A DNA stretch of 64,000 nt from Methanomethylovorans hollandica DSM 15978 (GCF_000328665.1 NC_019977.1:62001-126000), one strand, 5' to 3'; counted from the first letter of the stretch, positions 1,966-38,408 are shown. The notes: generated from the letters alone by a model not told the origin. A program made the numbers and translations.

Positions 1966-3129
1966 CATCTCATGCGTATGGGTGATTGACTGACACCCCT
2001 GAGATTCTAAGGTATACCTAAAATCTCGTGTTCTATGCTCTAAGTTATTTGCAGCATTAAGATCAGCATTCACCTCATAACCACAAATTTCACAATGGAA
2101 TTTGAGGCTGTGTCGATTGTTCCTGCTAATATGATTACAGCGGAAACATGTCTGGGAAGTAAATGCAGGATCTACATATTCGGTAATAATTCCAGCTAAT
2201 TTCGCTTTATACGCTACAAATGATTGCAGTTGTCTGAAAGCCCAACTGCTGTGATGGTACCGATGTTTCTTTGATATATTGTGTTCAGTTCGTGTTCTTA
2301 TACCAGTCAGATCTTCAAACCCGATTACTGAAACATTGTTCTCTGCTGCAAATTTAACAATAGCTTTAGATATGCAATGGTTTACATCTTTCATTAGACG
2401 TTTCTCTTTACCAGCTAATTGTTTCATCACACTTTTAGCCGATGAAGTTCCCTTAGACTGTAACCTTGCTCTCATGTTCTTGTAGATATTTCTCTGGTTC
2501 TTAATCTCTCCACCAGCAAAAAACTTACATTTTTTATCGGTGGTAGATGCAACAGCCAGATAGTTCATACCAACATCAATTCCCATGAATGTAGAAGCAT
2601 CTTCAATTCGTTTATCGGGTATTTCTTGAGATACGGTCAGATGGAAGTAATATGATCCATCATCATGTTTGACTACTTTCGATGCTCCAAACTTCCAGGG
2701 AGACTTAAATAACTGCATTGCATAAGGGTAATTAACAAGTTGGTAGGTCTTCCTTCCACTGCTAAAAGTAGTTATACTAACTGAGTTTTCAGTTATAGTA
2801 TAATCTCTCTTATACGACAATATCATCGATGTAGGAGAATATACTATCTTTTGCCAATAACTCAAACCTTGTTTAGCAAGTTCTACAATTGTTTTATAGG
2901 TACCAGCTACTTGTCTGGGTATATTACAACTAACCTGAGATTTCAAACCAAGTTCTTCTCTTAAGTGGTTATAAACTAAAGGTTGCAACTTCCTGGCAGG
3001 TATTACTTTCTCATTATCAAAAACAATTTCAGAAACGTAGTTCATACCTTGTGCATATTTCTTTATGGTTTCTACTAGATCAAAATCAGGATCAACTATT
3101 TTCAGTTGGATAGTTCTAGTAGATTCCAT
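1960..3129 (-). CDS. tnpB: RNA-guided endonuclease TnpB
   Basis: A full-length TnpB of 389 residues with an apparently intact RuvC active site. It has D185 in FMGIDVGMNYLAV, E272 in VIGFEDLTG and D356 in NADLNAANN. A zinc ribbon formed by C328-x2-C331 and C346-x2-C349 sits between the second and third acidic residues. The N-terminal about 170 residues match the beta-barrel/REC region. TnpB proteins are RNA-guided DNA nucleases, ancestors of Cas12, that cut at a target next to a short TAM and help retain IS200/IS605 elements. Nothing in the sequence suggests inactivation. The gene sits directly downstream of a pilin-like gene that ends early (see 3205-3771). Confidence 0.93.
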   Translation of the reverse strand: MESTRTIQLKIVDPDFDLVETIKKYAQGMNYVSEIVFDNEKVIPARKLQPLVYNHLREELGLKSQVSCNIPRQVAGTYKTIVELAKQGLSYWQKIVYSPTSMILSYKRDYTITENSVSITTFSSGRKTYQLVNYPYAMQLFKSPWKFGASKVVKHDDGSYYFHLTVSQEIPDKRIEDASTFMGIDVGMNYLAVASTTDKKCKFFAGGEIKNQRNIYKNMRARLQSKGTSSAKSVMKQLAGKEKRLMKDVNHCISKAIVKFAAENNVSVIGFEDLTGIRTRTEHNISKKHRYHHSSWAFRQLQSFVAYKAKLAGIITEYVDPAFTSQTCFRCNHISRNNRHSLKFHCEICGYEVNADLNAANNLEHRTRDFRYTLESQGCQSITHTHEMI

Positions 3130-3204
3130 GCATAGTAATTCACACGCAAGTATTTATAGATAACATGTGAATAGTTAGTTGTAATCGGTTAATATGCACG
3201 GCAT

Positions 3205-3771
3205 TCATCCCCCAGCTTTCGCAAGGGGACTCCTGCCTGTAGATGTTGAAGAGCCAGATAACATAACTGCAGGGATCATTAACAGATCATCACCAACTGC
3301 AAAATTGGGTTTCGAGATCATCACTACCTTTTCTCTTTCATGTTTTGCCCAGGAGCCAGTATTCTCATAACCAATAGACCTTTCATTGTAACGATTTTCT
3401 ATTACCCTTAACTGTCTGTCAAAAGACTCTGTATCCATTTCGCTGGTGGAAGAATTCCATACCTGCATATCAACATTGATGGAACTGGTGCCTGTAACAG
3501 CTGCAGTGCTTTCATGAAGCTTTATTTCCACTGACTGAGAAGGTGAACTGCCGAATGCAACCTTATTGATGTTCGAAGTCAGCACGGTAAAACTTTGCTT
3601 TATGTTCTCTGTATGTTGGGCTTCCTGCATATATCTCACCAGAGAAAAACCGGCAGTGACTATGATAGATATTGCAAGAAGCATTATTCCCATGATGATA
3701 CTGAAGTCAACGATCTCTGAAAATGCTTCCTCAGCAATCTTTAAACCATCCAGAGTATTTTTGGAGCTCAT
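3205..3771 (-). CDS. pilin-like membrane-anchored protein, cluster A (C-terminally shortened)
   Basis: 188 residues with an N-terminal hydrophobic helix (about 23-47) following EEAFSEIVDFS. It is clearly paralogous to the 258-residue protein at 62626-63402: both have YMQEAQHTENIKQ-type, SPSQSVE-type and WAK-type segments in the same order. This copy stops about 70 residues earlier, right after LAKAGG, where the paralogue continues with GGKKTIHNYEN. The stop lies at the edge of the TnpB element, so truncation by insertion is likely. The start has an AAGGTG ribosome-binding site and follows the previous gene by 1 nt. The family may match the haloarchaeal DUF7289 group (number from memory). Function is unknown; a role in surface or pilus-like structures is inferred. 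Confidence 0.75.
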   Translation of the reverse strand: MSSKNTLDGLKIAEEAFSEIVDFSIIMGIMLLAISIIVTAGFSLVRYMQEAQHTENIKQSFTVLTSNINKVAFGSSPSQSVEIKLHESTAAVTGTSSINVDMQVWNSSTSEMDTESFDRQLRVIENRYNERSIGYENTGSWAKHEREKVVMISKPNFAVGDDLLMIPAVMLSGSSTSTGRSPLAKAGG

Positions 3772-27360: not shown

Positions 27361-27503
27361 CTCCTCTTATTTTAGGCTCTCATGCACTATCTATTTATAG
27401 TTAATAGTCACAACTTTTGTACAGGTTCTTTTTTCTGTTCGGATATGCAAGTGTATTTTCAGGAACAGTAAAAGACGTATTTTATTTTGTAAGGTGGGTA
27501 ACC

Positions 27504-28670
27504 ATGGACATTACATGCTCTCCTGAAAAAAACAGCCCAGAAAATCTTAATAGCGAGGAAGAGCCTGCTCTGCAGATGTTATTGGAGCTTCCTGGCGGAG
27601 AAAAGGTATACAGGCAGGATTGCTCCATAGTCATAAAACTTCCCTCTGGCAGGAGTGCTCTTACTACTTCATGGCTTAACGGAGGTTATCGCGAAGACCT
27701 GGAATGTATTATCAATAACCAGATTCCACGTGGAGTAAAAAAAGGTGAGGAACTGGAAGGTGGAGACGTATCTGCTTACCTTTCCCTGCTGGCTTCAAAA
27801 TTAGGATTCGATCCATTAAAGAGCTCTGGCATGCTAACTGCTGCGAACATGAATAATGTCGCTGTAGTCAGCAAGGGTTTCAGAGGTCTTGAGGTTACTG
27901 CAATAGTAACCGGAGGTGTTGAAATAAATGGGGGTAGAGCAGGGGATCCAGCTTCATACTATCAGGAGAACGGAAACCATTTCCCCATAAACGGGACCAT
28001 AAATACCATTATTGTAATAAATGCGCACCTTCCGGAATATACGATGTCTCGTGTCACTATGACTGCTACTGAAGCAAAGGCAGTGGCTCTGCAGGAGTTG
28101 ATGGTCCCAAGCAGATATTCCCAGGGAATAGCCACAGGCTCAGGCACGGATATGATCGCTGTTATTTGCAATATGACAAGTTCTCTGAAGCTTACGGATG
28201 GAGGAACGCATTCCAAGCTAGGGGAACTTATAGGGAAGTGTGTGATAGAAGCCACTAAGAAAGCACTTGAGAAGCAGTCGGAACTTACGCCTATTTCCCA
28301 GCTTAATATGTTATTGAGGCTGGAAAGGTTCGGGGTGGATGAAGCATATTACTGGAAAGTGGCTTCCCATATGGCAGGTGAGAATCGTAAAATGCGTTTC
28401 CTGAAAGACCTGAGGGAAATAGCAGCTAATCCTTTATTGGTAACAACCACTTCTGCCATTATACACATAGTTGATGAAGTTTCCTGGGGTCTACTACCTG
28501 AAACTTCAGCACGGACAATGGCACTTGCTCTTCTTCAGCAGCTTCCGATCCTGTTAGGAAGCAACAAAAAGCCACCAGAGGACTTACTGAACGGTTATGA
28601 TAGTATTGTTGATAATCTGGTATACATGACAGCCTGGCTGGTGAAAAACAGTATCATGGTAGAAAAATGA
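27504..28670 (+). CDS. cbiZ: adenosylcobinamide amidohydrolase CbiZ with C-terminal extension
   Basis: 388 residues from ATG 27504 (MDITCSPEK), which has GGTGGG upstream. The CbiZ domain covers about residues 30-260: SALTTSWLNGGYREDLECIINNQIP, GMLTAANMNNVAVVSKGFRGLEVTAIVTGGVEINGGRAGDPA, INTIIVINAHLPEYTMSRVTMTATEAK and GIATGSGTDMIAVICN. CbiZ removes the aminopropanol side chain from adenosylcobinamide so that it can be reused for cobamide synthesis, a salvage route known in methanogens. About 125 further residues (helical, from SQLNMLLRLERFG) follow the domain and are not recognised. It is followed by a TIM-barrel gene 64 nt downstream. Confidence 0.93.
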   Translation: MDITCSPEKNSPENLNSEEEPALQMLLELPGGEKVYRQDCSIVIKLPSGRSALTTSWLNGGYREDLECIINNQIPRGVKKGEELEGGDVSAYLSLLASKLGFDPLKSSGMLTAANMNNVAVVSKGFRGLEVTAIVTGGVEINGGRAGDPASYYQENGNHFPINGTINTIIVINAHLPEYTMSRVTMTATEAKAVALQELMVPSRYSQGIATGSGTDMIAVICNMTSSLKLTDGGTHSKLGELIGKCVIEATKKALEKQSELTPISQLNMLLRLERFGVDEAYYWKVASHMAGENRKMRFLKDLREIAANPLLVTTTSAIIHIVDEVSWGLLPETSARTMALALLQQLPILLGSNKKPPEDLLNGYDSIVDNLVYMTAWLVKNSIMVEK

Positions 28671-28734
28671 TTCTTGATCATTTTATACACTATAGATGTA
28701 TACAAAATTGTGAGGTTTTAACATTAAAAGTTTA

Positions 28735-29712
28735 ATGAACTTCTCTCTTCATGAGAGTGACCTGTCACGTTTTGAAAATGACTGGAACAAAGTGAAGTCT
28801 TTCGTGAGGTCTCATGGACTTGATGGTGTAGAGCTTTTCATTGATCATAATCTTCTTCCAGATATTCCTTCCGGGATAGTTAAAGGTGTACATTTACCTT
28901 ACTGGATGGGAAGGCATCGTGCATGGGTGGATGAAAAATCTTTCAATGGAAATATGGATGAAAATGAGAAGTTTTTCCTGTTCGGAGGTCATGATCGCCA
29001 GGATATGATTTCGAACTTTAGGAGTGCTCTTGAGAATGCTGCATCTATAGATGCAGAATATGGAGTTTTTCATGTTGCTTATGTGGAGCTGGACCATGTG
29101 TTCACCCGGAATTTTGGGGTTTCTGATACAGAGGTCATGGATTCAACTGCAGATTTTCTCAATGGGTCTTTATCGTTTTTTCCAAATGGAGAGCCACCAG
29201 TAAGGCTCTTTTTAGAGAACCTGTGGTGGCCTGGCCTAAACTTGCTGGACACTGCTGCAACAATTCATTTTATAGAATCCCTTGAATTTGATAACTGGGC
29301 TTTTACACTTGATACAGGCCATTTAATGAATGCAATAATGAATTGCACTGATCAAAGGACTGCAATTGATTCGGTACTGGATCTGCTGGCAAGGTATCCG
29401 GAAGATATTATTGACAGGATAGAAGGAATGCACTTGCATTGCAGTCTATCGGGTGACTATCAGATGCAAGTGGCAAGAAATGGTGCACCTGAGGGTTACT
29501 ATGACCTCTCTTTCCATGAGCGTCTCATTGCTGTCATGGAGCATGTTTCAAAAATAGATCAGCACATGCCTTTTACTGAAGAAGGTTGCAGGAAGATCGT
29601 GGACTTCGTGAGGCCGCGGTTCCTTACTCATGAATTTGAAACCAACAGCCTGCCTGAACTTGACTGGAAGCTTCGAACACAGATACAAGCATTGTATGGG
29701 AACGAAATATAA
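28735..29712 (+). CDS. TIM-barrel sugar phosphate isomerase/epimerase-like protein
   Basis: 325 residues resembling the AP endonuclease family 2/xylose isomerase-like barrel. Metal-binding-type positions are plausible in LFLENLWWPGL (E), FTLDTGHLMNA (D and H), GMHLHCSLSGDY (H) and FLTHEFET (E). The family includes endonuclease IV, sugar isomerases and uncharacterised enzymes; the substrate is not evident. A stretch of tryptophan and phenylalanine residues, including YWMGRHRAWVDEKSF, is unusual for endonuclease IV, which argues against DNA repair. It follows cbiZ on the same strand, so a role in cobamide salvage (for example on the nucleotide loop) is an inference from position. Confidence 0.75.
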   Translation: MNFSLHESDLSRFENDWNKVKSFVRSHGLDGVELFIDHNLLPDIPSGIVKGVHLPYWMGRHRAWVDEKSFNGNMDENEKFFLFGGHDRQDMISNFRSALENAASIDAEYGVFHVAYVELDHVFTRNFGVSDTEVMDSTADFLNGSLSFFPNGEPPVRLFLENLWWPGLNLLDTAATIHFIESLEFDNWAFTLDTGHLMNAIMNCTDQRTAIDSVLDLLARYPEDIIDRIEGMHLHCSLSGDYQMQVARNGAPEGYYDLSFHERLIAVMEHVSKIDQHMPFTEEGCRKIVDFVRPRFLTHEFETNSLPELDWKLRTQIQALYGNEI

Positions 29713-29850
29713 AAAGAATATATCTCTAGTATATTTGATTCATTGCACAAATATATGTTTTATATACATTACTAATTTAGATGAGGTATATGTCTTATAG
29801 AATATTAACGGGGAATGTTTTATATATGTATAAATAATACTTTGCTATAT
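29713..29850 (+). promoter_or_regulatory. promoter of the ArsR-type regulator gene
   Basis: The spacer has TTTATATATGTATAAATAA at about 29819-29837, close upstream of the ATG at 29851. The message would start at or just before the ATG and be leaderless. This supports 29851 rather than the longer in-frame start at 29815. Confidence 0.55.
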
Positions 29851-30408
29851 ATGAGCCCATTTGATAACAATCCCCCTCAAGACCTTAACAACACTGAACG
29901 TCTTAAAGTATTCAGTGCTTTGGGCAGTGATACACGCTTGAAAATGCTGCAAAAGCTGTGCGAGGGTGAGGTTCACATCTCCGAACTGGCAAGGGAGCTT
30001 GATATATCTGTTCCGGTTGCAGCGAAGCATGCGACCATTCTCGAGGGCGCTCAACTGATAGAGCGCAAGGTGTACGGGAAAACCCATGTTTTGAAACTAA
30101 ATAATAAGAACATTGTTTCAGCTTTGGATATACTTGCACCCACTAAAACTATAGAAGTACCAAAAGGTACAACTCTTCTGGAAGCCCTGAAAAAGGTTGC
30201 TGTAGTGGAAGTACGGCAGGACTATGACTTTGAGAATATTGTGTCCACCAATGGTGAAGAAGGTTTCTTTGTGTATGAAGTGGACGGCAAACTCCTTGAT
30301 AAGACAGTTAAGAACTGTACGTTTGAAAAGGATGCAACAGTCGAATGGAAGAAACTGGAAGCCGTTACTAAATTGAAGATCAATATCAAAGTAAAGGATG
30401 AAGAGTGA
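29851..30408 (+). CDS. ArsR-type HTH regulator with C-terminal beta-rich domain
   Basis: 185 residues from ATG 29851. The N-terminal winged helix is ArsR-like: RLKVFSALGSDTRLKMLQKLCEGEVHISELARELDISVPVAAKHATILEGAQLIERKVYGKTHVLKLN. After a linker with KTIEVPKGTTLLEALKKV, a C-terminal small domain reads YDFENIVSTNGEEGFFVYEVDGKL ... ATVEWKKLEAVTKLKI. It resembles the beta-grasp-like DUF4430 fold by eye, but this is not certain. No cysteine metal site of classical ArsR is present. It probably senses a ligand through the C-terminal domain. The neighbouring cobinamide salvage gene suggests, without proof, a corrinoid-related signal. Confidence 0.85.
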   Translation: MSPFDNNPPQDLNNTERLKVFSALGSDTRLKMLQKLCEGEVHISELARELDISVPVAAKHATILEGAQLIERKVYGKTHVLKLNNKNIVSALDILAPTKTIEVPKGTTLLEALKKVAVVEVRQDYDFENIVSTNGEEGFFVYEVDGKLLDKTVKNCTFEKDATVEWKKLEAVTKLKINIKVKDEE

Positions 30409-30508
30409 TAATTCACACTTTAGTGGATCGTTAAGTTCTCTCATACCTTTTTAATACTTTCACATCGCTTACATTTCTGTTTTATATTCAATCATCAGTC
30501 ATTGCATT

Positions 30509-31642
30509 GTGAGAACTCTCCATGAAGCCCATAAGTCCCTCACGGAGCGTATGCGCTATCTAGCATCAGGTACTAAATATGATAGCTGCAACCAAAGTGC
30601 CTTATGCCATGCTTTTGCTCCCGATGGCAGATGTATCCAGCTTTATAAGACGCTGCTTACAAATTATTGTTCAGGGGAGTGTACCTACTGTCCCAACAGA
30701 TGTGAAAGGGATACTCCCCGCGTATCACTATCCCCGGATGAGATCGTAAAGATCACATGGTCCTTTTACAGAAGAAATGCTGTAGAGGGCTTGTTCCTGT
30801 CTTCCGGTGTAATAGGGGATGCTGAGAATACTTCCGAAAAACAGCTTGAAGTGGCCAGAAAATTGCGTGCTCAGGGTTTTGAAGGATACATACACATGAG
30901 GCTTATGCCAGGTACTCCAAAGTATCTTCTGGAAGAGATCGCGGATGTGGCAAATAAGTTCGGAGTCAATGCTGAAACAACAAGTAGTATCAACTATTCT
31001 GAGGTCTGTCCAAACTTCAATTACAATACTGATGTGCTACAGCGTCTAAAATGGACAAAGGAACTCATAATCCAGAAAAGGAAAGAAGTTGGCTATGGGG
31101 GTCGTATCATCGGTGCCAACGACACTCAGTTCGTTGTAGGTGCTGCTAATGAGTCTGACCAGGATATTGTGCACACTGTGACAAAGTTCATGGACAAATA
31201 CGATCTCAGAAGGCCTTATTTTATGAGTTTTGATCCTGTACCGAACACACCTCTTGAACACAACGAACCCTCGCCCCAATGGCGTGAGGCAAGGCTTTAT
31301 CAGACATCTTACCTACTTAAGGACTACGGACTGAAGGCAAGGGATCTTGATGGAATATATACAGATACAGGTTTTCTGAAAGATCAGGATCCAAAGATCC
31401 TGCTTGCCCAATCTAACCCTGAAATATTTCCTATAGATGTCAACAATGCTAGCCTGCAGGAATTGTTGCTGGTTCCGGGGATCGGCCCTGTAAGTGCCAG
31501 TCGTATAATGCAATCCAGACCTATTAACTGTGAGCAGGAACTTGCACGCATGGGTGTGGTCATTACGCGGGCAAGACCTTACATTAAACTCAAAGGCCAT
31601 TTTCAGACAAACCTCTCTGCTTTTATGGAGGTATGTTCATGA
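30509..31642 (+). CDS. radical SAM putative DNA modification/repair protein (UDG-linked family) with C-terminal HhH
   Basis: 377 residues from GTG 30509. The radical SAM cluster motif is CSGECTYC (CX3CX2C) at about residues 54-61, preceded by KYDSCNQSALCHAF with two more cysteines. The barrel continues with GLFLSSGVIGDAENTSEKQLE and FEGYIHMRLMPGT. The C-terminus has a helix-hairpin-helix, VNNASLQELLLVPGIGPVSASRIM, for DNA binding. This is the family described in bacteria as a radical SAM protein linked to uracil-DNA glycosylase (TIGR03916-like), assigned from memory. The reaction is unknown. The gene shares an ATGA overlap with its usual partner downstream. No UDG gene is nearby. Confidence 0.9.
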   Translation: MRTLHEAHKSLTERMRYLASGTKYDSCNQSALCHAFAPDGRCIQLYKTLLTNYCSGECTYCPNRCERDTPRVSLSPDEIVKITWSFYRRNAVEGLFLSSGVIGDAENTSEKQLEVARKLRAQGFEGYIHMRLMPGTPKYLLEEIADVANKFGVNAETTSSINYSEVCPNFNYNTDVLQRLKWTKELIIQKRKEVGYGGRIIGANDTQFVVGAANESDQDIVHTVTKFMDKYDLRRPYFMSFDPVPNTPLEHNEPSPQWREARLYQTSYLLKDYGLKARDLDGIYTDTGFLKDQDPKILLAQSNPEIFPIDVNNASLQELLLVPGIGPVSASRIMQSRPINCEQELARMGVVITRARPYIKLKGHFQTNLSAFMEVCS

Positions 31643-32487
31643 TAATCGGCTTCAGAACAACTGTAGAAGGTGTGTTGCTTGCCTGCCTGAAACTACGGCA
31701 GTCGCCTGATGCACACCTTATGTTTGCTGAGGATCTGGAAGAACTTCGAAGAAAGATCGATTTTACAGGAACAGACAATGATCTTGAGCTTGCTGGCTTC
31801 GGATCGAAGCTCTCAGCAATGGAACTTGCAGCACTTGCTTTTGGCAAGCACTGGGATCGTCATTTGAAATTATCTTACAGGAAAGAACCCGATCTCATCC
31901 ATTTTATAGATATGGTGCTCAGACATTCAAATTGTAACCCCTCAGAGCTTGTAAGAGCTTTGAGCTTATCAGAGGATATAATCTCCCTTTTTTCAGGTAA
32001 GAACCAATTGCAAAAGCGATGCTACAGATGCATGCGTGAAGTGAATCTTTTCCATCACAGGTTATGTATGTTTGCAAGGCCTGTTTTTGTAAGAGGGATA
32101 CTTATAGCGAATGTCAAAACGGAACACAGGATCGAAGATATGTTCTGCAGATGGCTGGCTAGAAAAAATCCGGACCTTCCGGTAGCTGTGGTCAATGGGC
32201 ATAAAGCGTGGATAGGTAACGGTCATTTTGTAGGTCTTGACAGCTTCATAGTCGTTAATTCTTCTCTCCTGGGTAGTCTTAAAACCATGAATGCATCGGA
32301 TGAGGTTGAGGAACTATGGGATGTTTATTATGATTCTCAGATGATAGATAGCAGGAGGAACAAGAATCAGGCTAAGAAGTTTCAGCCTAAGGTTGCTTCT
32401 TCTGTAAGTAGCATGTCTATGAAAGACAGGTACAAGGTGGAAAGGGGGATATCTCCCTGTAAATTGGGGGATTTTTTTGAAGTGTGA
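31639..32487 (+). CDS. DUF4130-type protein, partner of the radical SAM DNA repair protein
   Basis: 282 residues. ATG 31639 overlaps the rSAM stop in ATGA and has GGAGGT 6 nt upstream, which decides against ATG 31633. The C-terminal half shows the family pattern: KRCYRCMREVNLFHHRLCMFARP, DMFCRWLARKNPDLPVAVVNGHKAWIGNG and EELWDVYYDSQMIDSRRNKNQAKKFQPK. The TIGR03915/DUF4130 family is found next to the radical SAM protein and, in many bacteria, fused to a uracil-DNA glycosylase-like domain. No such fusion is seen here. Its molecular role is unknown; a DNA metabolism role is inferred from the conserved pairing. Its stop overlaps the MutS-like gene start (GTGA). Confidence 0.85.
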   Translation: MIIGFRTTVEGVLLACLKLRQSPDAHLMFAEDLEELRRKIDFTGTDNDLELAGFGSKLSAMELAALAFGKHWDRHLKLSYRKEPDLIHFIDMVLRHSNCNPSELVRALSLSEDIISLFSGKNQLQKRCYRCMREVNLFHHRLCMFARPVFVRGILIANVKTEHRIEDMFCRWLARKNPDLPVAVVNGHKAWIGNGHFVGLDSFIVVNSSLLGSLKTMNASDEVEELWDVYYDSQMIDSRRNKNQAKKFQPKVASSVSSMSMKDRYKVERGISPCKLGDFFEV

Positions 32488-34616
32488 GAAGTGAAAGTAT
32501 GAAACGCAAAGAAAGCATATGTTCTTTAAATGACATCCCAGGCATCGGGGAAAAAATGGCCAGACGTTTCATAGAACACTTTGGAACCGAACAGAATGCT
32601 CTTGAAGCTATCCTAAATGGTGATGTGGCAAGCATATCATGCATAGAAGGTGTAGGTCAGAGATATGCGATATCCTTGGTGCAGGAGGTAAACTCCAGGA
32701 TAGAAGGTGTTAGAGTACAGGATTTCCTGAAAACACGCGAGTCCATGGATATCTATGAGAGGTTGCTGGATATTATCAAGACCTTTGCACACACAGGTTA
32801 TGCAAGAGAGAAGATGCATACTTTTTTTCCTTATCCGGCATCCAGTCGGGACAGGATAGAATCGATACGGATTTCGATGGCACAACATATTGAACATGCT
32901 GATATGCTCAGAGGGAATGAAGTTTTTCTATCTTTACTAAGTGGTGTGAAACCACTCAATCTGAATCAAAAATCGATGAAAGTGCGGGACCGGGTGGTCC
33001 TTACCACTGATCCAAAAAAGCTTGAAAAGATAAAGAAACGGTTTGGAGAATATGTGGATGTGCACCTTGTAAGTTCCCTTACCGATGTAGTGGATTCAGC
33101 ACGGGGTTATTCTCATGTCATAACCGCAGATGACGATCTATTTTCCTGTGAGTTGCCCGAGGATGTAGAGGTAGAGATAGTTCCTGACCTGGAAGCCTGT
33201 GAAGAATGGAAGATAGTTCCTGATAATGAGATCAATCAGGTTTCACGTAATCTGCAGGTGATAGATTGTTCCCTTCAGGTTACCCGAATTATCAGAGAGG
33301 CTGGAATGGCCTTCCTTCAGGAAGTGGACAATGTAACTCTGGATAAACTGGAAAAAACCATCTGCATGATAGACGAGAATGGGGATGTGAGGGCAGGTAC
33401 AGACCCCGAGATAGATCGTCTTGCATTAATACTTGGAGGAATTGATACTGCTGTGGGAAGTGCAAACACCTTTGCCAATGAGGAACTCAACAATGCTCTC
33501 AAAGAAAGCCAGCTTGTTCTCAGTGGTCAGGATATGTTAAGGATGATGCATGATAATACTGAACTACAGTCAGTTCTGGAAAACCAATTGCGTCATAATT
33601 ATGTTTCAGTGGTTGAGAAAGCCAGGAAACATATTTGTACAACTCTCTGTCTGCAAAAGAAAGAGATCTTTTTCCTGGATAACTTATTCCCTCAAACCAT
33701 TAACCATCCTGTGGAGGCGGACAGGACACAGGTAACTGTCCTGAAACAGTATATTAAAGAGAGGATCGCGAAAAGAAAGATAGAACATAAGAGGCAAGTG
33801 GCGCGCTCTCTTGTGGATATGCGCGATACTATCCGAGAAATCGTGAAAGAAGTATTGAATTTCGATGTTGGTTTTACTATTGGTTGTTTTTCTTCAGAGT
33901 ATGGTCTTTCTCTTCCCAGGATTATAGAAGGAACCGGAGTGGGTTTGAAAAATGCAGAGAACCTCTTCCTCAGATCTAGGCATGGTACAGTTGTACCAAT
34001 TGATTATGCAGTTGGTGAGACATCTTTCAGCCATAAGCAAGATGTGAGCAGAATAGTCCTCCTCAGCGGAGTAAACTCGGGGGGTAAGACCTCACTTCTT
34101 GAATTGCTGGCACAATGTATTATCCTTGCCCACATGGGCTTTCCCGTACCTGCGGCAGCCATGGAGGTAGGACTGACTGATGGGTTGTACTATTTTGCCA
34201 AATCCAAGGGCACTCTCGATGCAGGAGCCTTCGAGACAACACTGATCGATTTTTCAGTGGTTGCTGATAGTTCAGGAAAGATCGTGCTTGTGGATGAGCT
34301 GGAGTCGATCACAGAACCAGGTGCTTCTGCCAAAATCATTTCCGGTATTCTGGAAATGCTTTCAGAGAACGAGAAAAGCCTGGCAGTGTTCGTGTCGCAT
34401 CTTTCAGGGCTCATTATGGAAAATACACAAAGTAATGTAAGGGTGGACGGTATCGAAGCAAGCGGTCTGGACAGTGACCTTAATCTAATTGTGAATCGGA
34501 CTCCCCGTTACAATTATGTAGCAAGAAGTACACCGGAACTAATAGTAGAAAGGCTGCTGCGCAAAACAAGTGGCAATGATCATCTCTTTTATGAGAGGCT
34601 GAAAAGTAAGTTTTGA
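32484..34616 (+). CDS. MutS-family ATPase with N-terminal helix-hairpin-helix domain
   Basis: 710 residues from GTG 32484 (overlap with the previous stop), or 705 from ATG 32499. Two HhH motifs open the protein: LNDIPGIGEKMARRFIEHFG and ISCIEGVGQRYAISLVQ. A long helical middle region corresponds to the MutS core/clamp. The ATPase has Walker A LLSGVNSGGKTSLLELL, the DAGAFETTLIDF segment and Walker B IVLVDELESITEPG, then FVSHLSG. No N-terminal mismatch-recognition domain (FxE motif) and no C-terminal Smr nuclease are present, so it is neither canonical MutS nor MutS2. Its operon with the rSAM/DUF4130 pair suggests joint action in DNA repair or branched-DNA handling. Confidence 0.88.
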   Translation: MRSESMKRKESICSLNDIPGIGEKMARRFIEHFGTEQNALEAILNGDVASISCIEGVGQRYAISLVQEVNSRIEGVRVQDFLKTRESMDIYERLLDIIKTFAHTGYAREKMHTFFPYPASSRDRIESIRISMAQHIEHADMLRGNEVFLSLLSGVKPLNLNQKSMKVRDRVVLTTDPKKLEKIKKRFGEYVDVHLVSSLTDVVDSARGYSHVITADDDLFSCELPEDVEVEIVPDLEACEEWKIVPDNEINQVSRNLQVIDCSLQVTRIIREAGMAFLQEVDNVTLDKLEKTICMIDENGDVRAGTDPEIDRLALILGGIDTAVGSANTFANEELNNALKESQLVLSGQDMLRMMHDNTELQSVLENQLRHNYVSVVEKARKHICTTLCLQKKEIFFLDNLFPQTINHPVEADRTQVTVLKQYIKERIAKRKIEHKRQVARSLVDMRDTIREIVKEVLNFDVGFTIGCFSSEYGLSLPRIIEGTGVGLKNAENLFLRSRHGTVVPIDYAVGETSFSHKQDVSRIVLLSGVNSGGKTSLLELLAQCIILAHMGFPVPAAAMEVGLTDGLYYFAKSKGTLDAGAFETTLIDFSVVADSSGKIVLVDELESITEPGASAKIISGILEMLSENEKSLAVFVSHLSGLIMENTQSNVRVDGIEASGLDSDLNLIVNRTPRYNYVARSTPELIVERLLRKTSGNDHLFYERLKSKF

Positions 34617-37101: not shown

Positions 37102-37211
37102 CAGGATATGGTTAGTATTAAATATGACTATGCATTAGTTATTATACAAATTCCCCAAGAAATATAAAAACATGTTAAAAATGGAATTTGTTTACTTTAA
37201 AGAGGATTAGA

Positions 37212-38408
37212 ATGATCAGGAACATCAAGGTCGAACCTTTGACGGAAACTCCTGTCAACAGACAGCAGATCGAACTTGTTGAGAGAAAGGGTATTGGACA
37301 CCCTGACAGCATTTCCGATGGTCTCTCTGAGGCAGTGAGCCGTGCTTTATGTGCTGAGTACATTAAAAAGTGTGGAGCTGTGCTACATCATAATACTGAT
37401 GAAACTCAGATAGTTGCAGGTCGCTCCTGCCCCGCATTCGGTGGCGGCGAGGTCATACAGCCCATATATACATTACTTGTGGGCAGGGCTACCAAAGAGT
37501 TTGAAGGTGTGGAGATCCCCACAGATGCTGTAGCACTTTCAGCCGCCAGGCAGTATCTGAGGAAGCACATTGTGGATATGGATCTGGAAAGGGATATCAT
37601 CATAGACTGTAAACTTGGTACAGGTTCTTCAGATCTGAGGGATGTGTTCAGGAAAGACAGTGTTCCTTTTGCAAATGACACTTCCTTTGGTGTTGGGCAT
37701 GCTCCTTTCTCAGAGCTTGAGAACATTGTCTACAATACTGAAAGGCAACTCATTAATGACTTGAAGAAAAAGGTTCCGGGCATAGGCACTGATATCAAGG
37801 TAATGGGTATGAGGGATGGAGATGAGATCACTGTTACTGTGGGCTGTGCTATGGTGGGCAGACACATTGACGATATGGACAGTTATATCAGTATCAAACA
37901 GCAGATGAACAACTATGTCCATGACCTCGCGCTGAAGTATACTGACAGGAAGGTCAATACCTATGTCAACACTGCAGATAATTATGACCATGGATCTGTG
38001 TTCCTGACCGTCACAGGTACTTCTGCAGAAATGGGTGACGATGGTTCTGTTGGAAGGGGTAACCGTTGCAATGGTCTGATCACTCCCAACAGGCCTATGA
38101 GCATGGAAGCAACAAGTGGTAAGAATCCCATCAATCACATTGGCAAACTTTACAACCTGCTTTCTACAAAGATGGCAATGCAGATCGTTCAGGAAATCCC
38201 TGATGTTGAGGACGTGTACATAAGGATACTTTCCCAGATAGGACAGCCCATAGACCAGCCATTGGTGGCAAGTGCTCAGATCATCCCGAAAAAGGGAACA
38301 CACTTCGAATCCATCAGGTCTGAAGCCAATGCCATCATTGATGAGGGCCTGGCCAACGTGGTAGACATCACTAAAATGATAATAAAGGGTGAATTGGACA
38401 CATTCTGA
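37212..38408 (+). CDS. archaeal S-adenosylmethionine synthetase
   Basis: 398 residues from ATG 37212, with AGAGG upstream; a TTG at 37188 is less likely. This is the archaeal MAT family, distinct from bacterial MetK. It has [87 protein letters not shown] and [14 protein letters not shown]. It makes SAM from methionine and ATP, needed by the radical SAM enzymes and methyltransferases of the cell. Length and motifs are complete. Confidence 0.97.

Follow-up and report, generated by a model that had tools for sequence, protein, structure and literature searches.

Whether three neighboring genes of an archaeal operon encode a single pathway, or two separable functions placed under common expression, is the question raised by a 64,000-nucleotide stretch of DNA from Methanomethylovorans hollandica DSM 15978 (NC_019977.1:62001-126000; hereafter the window, with positions counted from its first nucleotide). 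The window contains three same-strand open reading frames (ORFs) in a tightly packed operon: a gene for a radical S-adenosylmethionine (SAM) protein of the TIGR03916 (rSAM_link_UDG) group, identified by profile matches (the rSAM; 30509..31642, plus strand, 377 amino acids from a GTG start), a DUF4130 gene (PF13566; 31639..32487, plus strand, 282 amino acids), and a gene for a MutS-like ATPase, identified by profiles and homolog alignment (32499..34616, plus strand, 705 amino acids). The original prediction, made from the sequence alone, was that this three-gene operon specifies one complete pathway. The operon proved to be conserved; the complete three-part pathway is unsupported, because the MutS-like gene is independent and is kept without the rSAM-DUF4130 pair. 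We consider it rather probable that the operon joins two separable things, an rSAM-DUF4130 unit and an old MutS-like ATPase with two helix-hairpin-helix (HhH) motifs, here termed (HhH)2-MutS-like, that is merely coexpressed with it. Membership of one operon suggests a common occasion of use, DNA damage, and not one machine.

As judged from the alignments, the rSAM and DUF4130 proteins form a genuine unit in which extra cysteines of the rSAM are locked to DUF4130, and the MutS-like gene is not part of this unit. An N-terminal triple-cysteine motif found in the rSAM alignments, C27...C33-H34-x-F...G-R-C42 (30587..30634, plus strand), precedes the radical SAM [4Fe-4S] motif C54-x3-C58-x2-C61 (CX3CX2C; 30668..30691, plus strand; sequence and alignments) in the aligned archaeal and bacterial rSAMs. 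The pattern C...CH.[FWY]...GRC is present in 58/58 rSAMs that adjoin a DUF4130 gene, a count that is post hoc at one position, since a stricter first expression missed three members of family f6, probably Methanotrichaceae (S for D), and was then relaxed; it is present in none of the 30 rSAMs without DUF4130. Four motif-bearing rSAM loci without DUF4130 are all contig ends. In a tree built without the motif region, the cysteine motif and DUF4130 each change three times independently, always together (3/3), and six f6 genomes have lost both the motif and DUF4130 and retain the MutS-like gene. An rSAM relative from family f8 (L155, 3993-5960) lies in an ORF of 656 amino acids, with about 300 extra N-terminal residues and no adjoining DUF4130.

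Distribution was assessed in two samples, one of 60 relatives and one of 393 genomes of the phylum (62 of them Methanosarcinaceae). Every Methanosarcinaceae genome sampled carries one full-length copy of the MutS-like gene, including the 22/62 that lack the pair, and the gene also occurs without the pair in families f2 and f5, in pair-less f6 genomes, and throughout the sampled haloarchaea. It is an old, vertically inherited, independent, single-copy archaeal gene whose tree follows the families. In genus g6, inferred to be Methanohalobium, the locus order is arsR, MutS-like, hisB, with the pair missing in place; the pair was probably lost there, because in the tree this genus falls within a set of pair-bearing genera. 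Methanosarcina-type genomes carry the MutS-like gene among unrelated genes. The haloarchaeal homologs, annotated "DNA mismatch repair protein", resemble the M. hollandica protein in full-length architecture, length, HhH and Walker motifs, with 35-37% identity end to end, but they have no linkage to the rSAM pair, which is almost absent from the sampled haloarchaea. They probably correspond to Halobacterium mutS3 or Haloferax mutS5 (PMC2816208, PMC11276520); archaeal MutS5 is a Holliday-junction binder (PMC11276520). SAM synthetase was tried as a control gene for horizontal transfer and was unusable, as only a paralog was obtained from Methanocellaceae.

We regard it as unlikely that the three proteins form one pathway, in which the lesion chemistry of the rSAM and DUF4130 would be loaded or positioned by the MutS-like clamp, although the conservation of the locus is considerable. 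Among the 60 relatives, all 24 rSAM-bearing genomes have the DUF4130 and MutS-like genes directly downstream, contig breaks aside. DUF4130 is found in 51/393 genomes of the phylum, comprising 40 Methanosarcinaceae, seven of family f6, and four of family f14, which is Methanocellaceae (a named Methanocella metagenome-assembled genome (MAG), L205, groups with it). By their coordinates, the three genes lie in a row in 39 of the 40 pair-bearing Methanosarcinaceae; in the remaining genome a contig end interrupts them. The triad is present in the named genera Methanomethylovorans, Methanolobus, Methanococcoides, Methanohalophilus, and Methanosalsum and in anaerobic methanotrophic group 3 (ANME-3), and the co-occurrence check across archaea thus finds a linkage that is not confined to one species; within the phylum sample it is limited to Methanosarcinaceae. 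This conserved operon of overlapping or near-overlapping genes argues for one pathway, as do the presence of the MutS-like gene in all 51 pair-bearing genomes, the HhH domains of the rSAM and MutS-like proteins, and two ANME-3 loci (L180 and L191) in which the triad is intact though the flanks have changed on both sides. Against it stand the maintenance of the MutS-like gene where the pair was lost or never found, the separation of the pair from the MutS-like gene by 11 kb to >1 Mb in f6 and Methanocellaceae, and the equal synteny of the arsR and his flanks in most relatives, which makes adjacency weak evidence. Bacteria also have the pair, and the single near-complete record examined (Fusobacterium, 2.1 Mb) matched the MutS-like query only weakly, through the ATPase (57 bits).

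It is less likely still that the operon is an accident of synteny, the pair having landed beside an unrelated housekeeping gene in a slow-changing block. The absence of linkage outside Methanosarcinaceae favors such an accident, as does the synteny of cbiZ, arsR, hisBAG, and a SAM synthetase gene that most genera show around the triad, but the persistence of the triad in L180 and L191, where both flanks are replaced, argues otherwise. In addition, start/stop overlaps between the DUF4130 and MutS-like genes recur in several genera (-4 and -1 overlaps in Methanolobus, Methanococcoides, and ANME-3, within a range of about -4 to +44 nucleotides in Methanosarcinaceae operons), whereas the rSAM gene is preceded by an intergenic gap.

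The MutS-like protein matches MutS_V (PF00488, 37 bits, cut-off 30.2) and carries an N-terminal tandem HhH domain (32526..32687, plus strand; PF14520 (HHH_5), 32.1 bits, cut-off 27), whose motifs DIPGIGEKMARRF and EGVGQRYAISLV are kept across 24 homologs. The Walker A motif GVNSGGKT (34068..34091, plus strand) is invariant in the same 24 homologs, as is the DE of the Walker B region VDELES, located by sequence (34287..34310, plus strand). A search with Pfam-type profiles found no match to the MutS I-IV domains or to Smr, and the earlier description of a MutS-family ATPase with two HhH motifs and without a mismatch-recognition domain or Smr nuclease is upheld by both the profiles and the conservation. 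The protein falls in neither MutS1, with no MutS_I match and a PRK05399 score of 34.5 (cut-off 480), nor MutS2, with no Smr match and a TIGR01069 score of 53.9 (cut-off 400). In its AlphaFold2 model (mean predicted local distance difference test (pLDDT) score 83), residues 82-710 superimpose on the MutS2/MutS core (VIA Z 20-24), with the tandem HhH in front. The core fold matches the MutS2 proteins of B. subtilis, Thermus, and Thermotoga (VIA Z 22-24), from which the archaeal protein differs by its tandem HhH, the lack of a Smr match, and its sub-threshold TIGR01069 score. The least likely of the alternatives, very improbable and rejected as the principal reading, is that the MutS-like protein serves the radical enzyme as a reactivase or a chaperone-like motor, the role annotated for KamC toward lysine 5,6-aminomutase: KamC is the top NCBIfam match of the ATPase part (78.5 bits, compared with 53.9 for MutS2) and the gene neighbor is a radical enzyme, but the score is far under the KamC cut-off of 300, the match starts at residue 358 and leaves the HhH and the N-terminal half uncovered, the tandem HhH is conserved throughout, and the haloarchaeal ortholog scores higher with MutS2 (91.7) than with KamC (84.1) and lives without the rSAM pair. 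A defense-system role was rejected as well, PADLOC giving only weak, ATPase-type matches.

The rSAM matches Pfam Radical_SAM and TIGR03916 (3e-86, 290.1 bits), under the curated TIGR03916 cut-off of 343.5, which no genome in the 393-genome sample passed. It ends in an HhH, as had been predicted (VPGIGPVSASRI; 31427..31513, plus strand; PF00633, 25.8 bits, cut-off 24). Homologs in Methanosarcinaceae share 71-93% identity, and the nearest named relatives are Methanomethylovorans MAGs.

The DUF4130 protein exceeds the gathering threshold of PF13566 (31.7 bits, threshold 27) and lies below the curated cut-off of TIGR03915 (18.1 bits, cut-off 112.25). The best-conserved stretch in the archaeal and bacterial alignment, W..YYdSQ.....RRN........P (32317..32388, plus strand), is the C-terminal tail, which is disordered or of low confidence in the AlphaFold2 model; it is a candidate docking tail, with the rSAM or DNA as the probable docking partner. 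The model has a pLDDT of 75 overall and about 85-95 over most of residues 1-215. In a structure search with it, all 50 best rows were DHH-superfamily proteins (RecJ, Cdc45, GdpP/NrnA), with Z up to 10.9 over 203-209 residues at 3.8-4.6 Å; Z was 10.9 both for RecJ (208 residues) and for a methanogen PAP phosphatase, and about 9 for Cdc45, at modest TM-scores of 0.3-0.44. At the level of the predicted model, a DHH (RecJ/Cdc45-like) fold is likely for DUF4130, a new but unproven lead; unlike the DHH proteins, it has no DHH catalytic motif: neither the DHH triad nor a D.D motif is conserved in the DUF4130 alignment, and a degenerate YDGSFEG resembling DHH motif I is found only in some bacterial members. 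The f6 DUF4130 proteins (L146-L149) consist of the C-terminal half and tail; the missing N-terminal half makes up much of the DHH-like body, so the body is dispensable in some lineages. In one genome of the Methanosarcinaceae (G011; L022 and L055), the DUF4130 gene is broken by an in-frame TAG, possibly a pyrrolysine codon, and in Methanohalophilus profundi (L202) it is split over two frames.

The association of the pair with uracil-DNA glycosylase (UDG) in bacteria, stated in the original prediction, is borne out: in this TIGR03916/TIGR03915-type pair, a UdgX domain is adjoining or fused. On bacterial plasmids the rSAM gene is followed by a stand-alone TIGR03915 protein in Parabacteroides and by a DUF4130-UdgX fusion in Azospirillum, Leisingera, and Paracoccus. 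The company that DUF4130 keeps with radical SAM and UDG genes was already reported in 2013 (Biol Direct, PMC3765255), together with the prediction of an enzyme related to mutagenesis. UdgX is described (PMC10359453) as excising uracil and cross-linking itself to the apurinic/apyrimidinic (AP) site. In the literature searched, no text named TIGR03916, linked UdgX with radical SAM proteins, or described the triad, and the pair's chemistry has no description there, as had been stated. The archaeal and bacterial pairs share the same rSAM core, with triple-cysteine, CX3CX2C, and HhH elements, and have DUF4130 directly downstream; the archaeal loci differ in that no fused or adjacent UDG was found, scores lie under the curated cut-offs, and a MutS-like gene follows. 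A profile scan found no UDG among the genes of the window locus, and tblastn found none in the archaeal pair loci, with limited sensitivity, since it recovered only two of the three known UdgX positives from bacteria. The prediction that no glycosylase is present thus holds for the locus and fails for the genome, which carries a family-4 UDG unlinked to the triad. That UDG gene (L211, 1363-1953) adjoins a convergent RecJ-like DHH gene (2319-3407; host contig C2, about 1836588-1838671); these neighbors are of interest given the predicted DHH-like fold of DUF4130, which is UDG-linked in bacteria. The Fusobacterium record (NZ_CP084075.1, L214) is filed as a plasmid and is probably a chromosome.

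For the two-part reading that we favor, we infer a mechanism that includes DNA as the substrate, the chemistry, the docking, and the DNA clamping. By analogy with its family, the rSAM would use its [4Fe-4S] cluster and SAM to generate a 5'-deoxyadenosyl radical, while its C-terminal HhH would hold DNA. The extra C27/C33/C42 site, found only alongside DUF4130, may speculatively be a second metal site that DUF4130 completes or guards. DUF4130 would be an accessory subunit, with a tail that docks on the rSAM or DNA and a body that is a catalytically dead DHH-like fold. Given that UDG-family (UdgX) domains adjoin or are fused to the bacterial versions, the substrate would likely be an altered DNA base; a pyrimidine lesion is a speculative choice. 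The MutS-like ATPase might act independently, as a clamp on branched or distorted DNA.

Several observations weigh against this two-part reading. None of the 51 genomes with DUF4130 lacks the rSAM or a full-length MutS-like gene, so that a true dependence is conceivable, although these genomes come from only three related families. The covariation of the cysteines and DUF4130 consists of three events only, with a sign test p of 0.25, and significance is unreachable with three pairs. An hhalign comparison of two DUF4130 alignments with two archaeal DHH alignments gave no match, so the fold has no sequence-profile support. Finally, the searched literature holds no biochemical data, and a DNA substrate is what we infer. 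A bolder proposal, which we consider improbable, is that DUF4130 is a catalytically dead Cdc45/RecJ-like DHH subunit completing the extra metal site of a DNA-acting radical SAM enzyme that, in Methanosarcinaceae, is delivered to lesions by the (HhH)2-MutS-like clamp, giving radical DNA repair without a glycosylase.

The gene starts bear on how closely the operon is coupled. The DUF4130 start is most likely ATG 31639, producing a 4-nucleotide ATGA overlap with the rSAM gene, because a Shine-Dalgarno sequence, GGAGGT (31627..31632, plus strand; read from the sequence), lies 6 nucleotides upstream and the same -4 arrangement is found in most relatives; an alternative ATG is present in the ORF at 31633. 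For the MutS-like gene, the likeliest start is ATG 32499, 11 nucleotides past the DUF4130 stop. The GTGA overlap by which the MutS-like gene had been thought to be coupled is not conserved, because congeners start the gene at an ATG matching 32499: in L166, L168, and L209, the sole plausible start is an ATG 12 nucleotides past the DUF4130 stop, and the alignments of four further congeners begin downstream of the GTG position. GTG 32484, which would give 710 amino acids, is absent from congeners and was rejected. Tight coupling of the two genes nevertheless stands, because -4 or -1 overlaps are found in many other genera. A TATA-like box, TTTTATATTC (30480..30489, plus strand; read from the sequence), lies about 20-29 nucleotides upstream of the rSAM GTG start, a position that would be compatible with an operon transcript having little or no leader.

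Upstream of the triad are cbiZ, an AP-endonuclease-2-fold gene, and an ArsR-family regulator-like gene with an extra C-terminal region (29815..30408, plus strand; profile match), and downstream on the other strand are hisB, hisA, and hisG, identified by homology and reading, not by family scan. The arsR gene, given here as genomic context only, is syntenic upstream of the triad in most pair-bearing relatives; in L069 and L074, which have lost the pair, it immediately precedes the MutS-like gene. The cbiZ gene (PF01955, 198.6 bits) and the following AP_endonuc_2-fold gene, which has a weak CbiR match (18.4 bits, cut-off 105), occupy 27417-29712 of the window, are adjacent in Methanolobus too, and are a candidate archaeal cobamide-remodeling pair. 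The pair also has a SAM synthetase gene in its vicinity, in the window (37188-38408, behind hisBAG) and, divergently, in Azospirillum (L213, 2529-3695), possibly by chance.

The more useful result is the tightness of the rSAM-DUF4130 pair, and a three-part pathway is not established. The pair is widespread and is named solely after its neighbors, and the covariation of DUF4130 with the three cysteines is the first sequence-level handle on how its members cooperate, naming residues to mutate. Because archaeal pair loci can do without a linked glycosylase, UDG would lie outside the core reaction. In these archaea the (HhH)2-MutS-like gene is old, single-copy, and nearly universal, and DUF4130, if its DHH-like fold is confirmed, would join the RecJ/Cdc45 DNA proteins.

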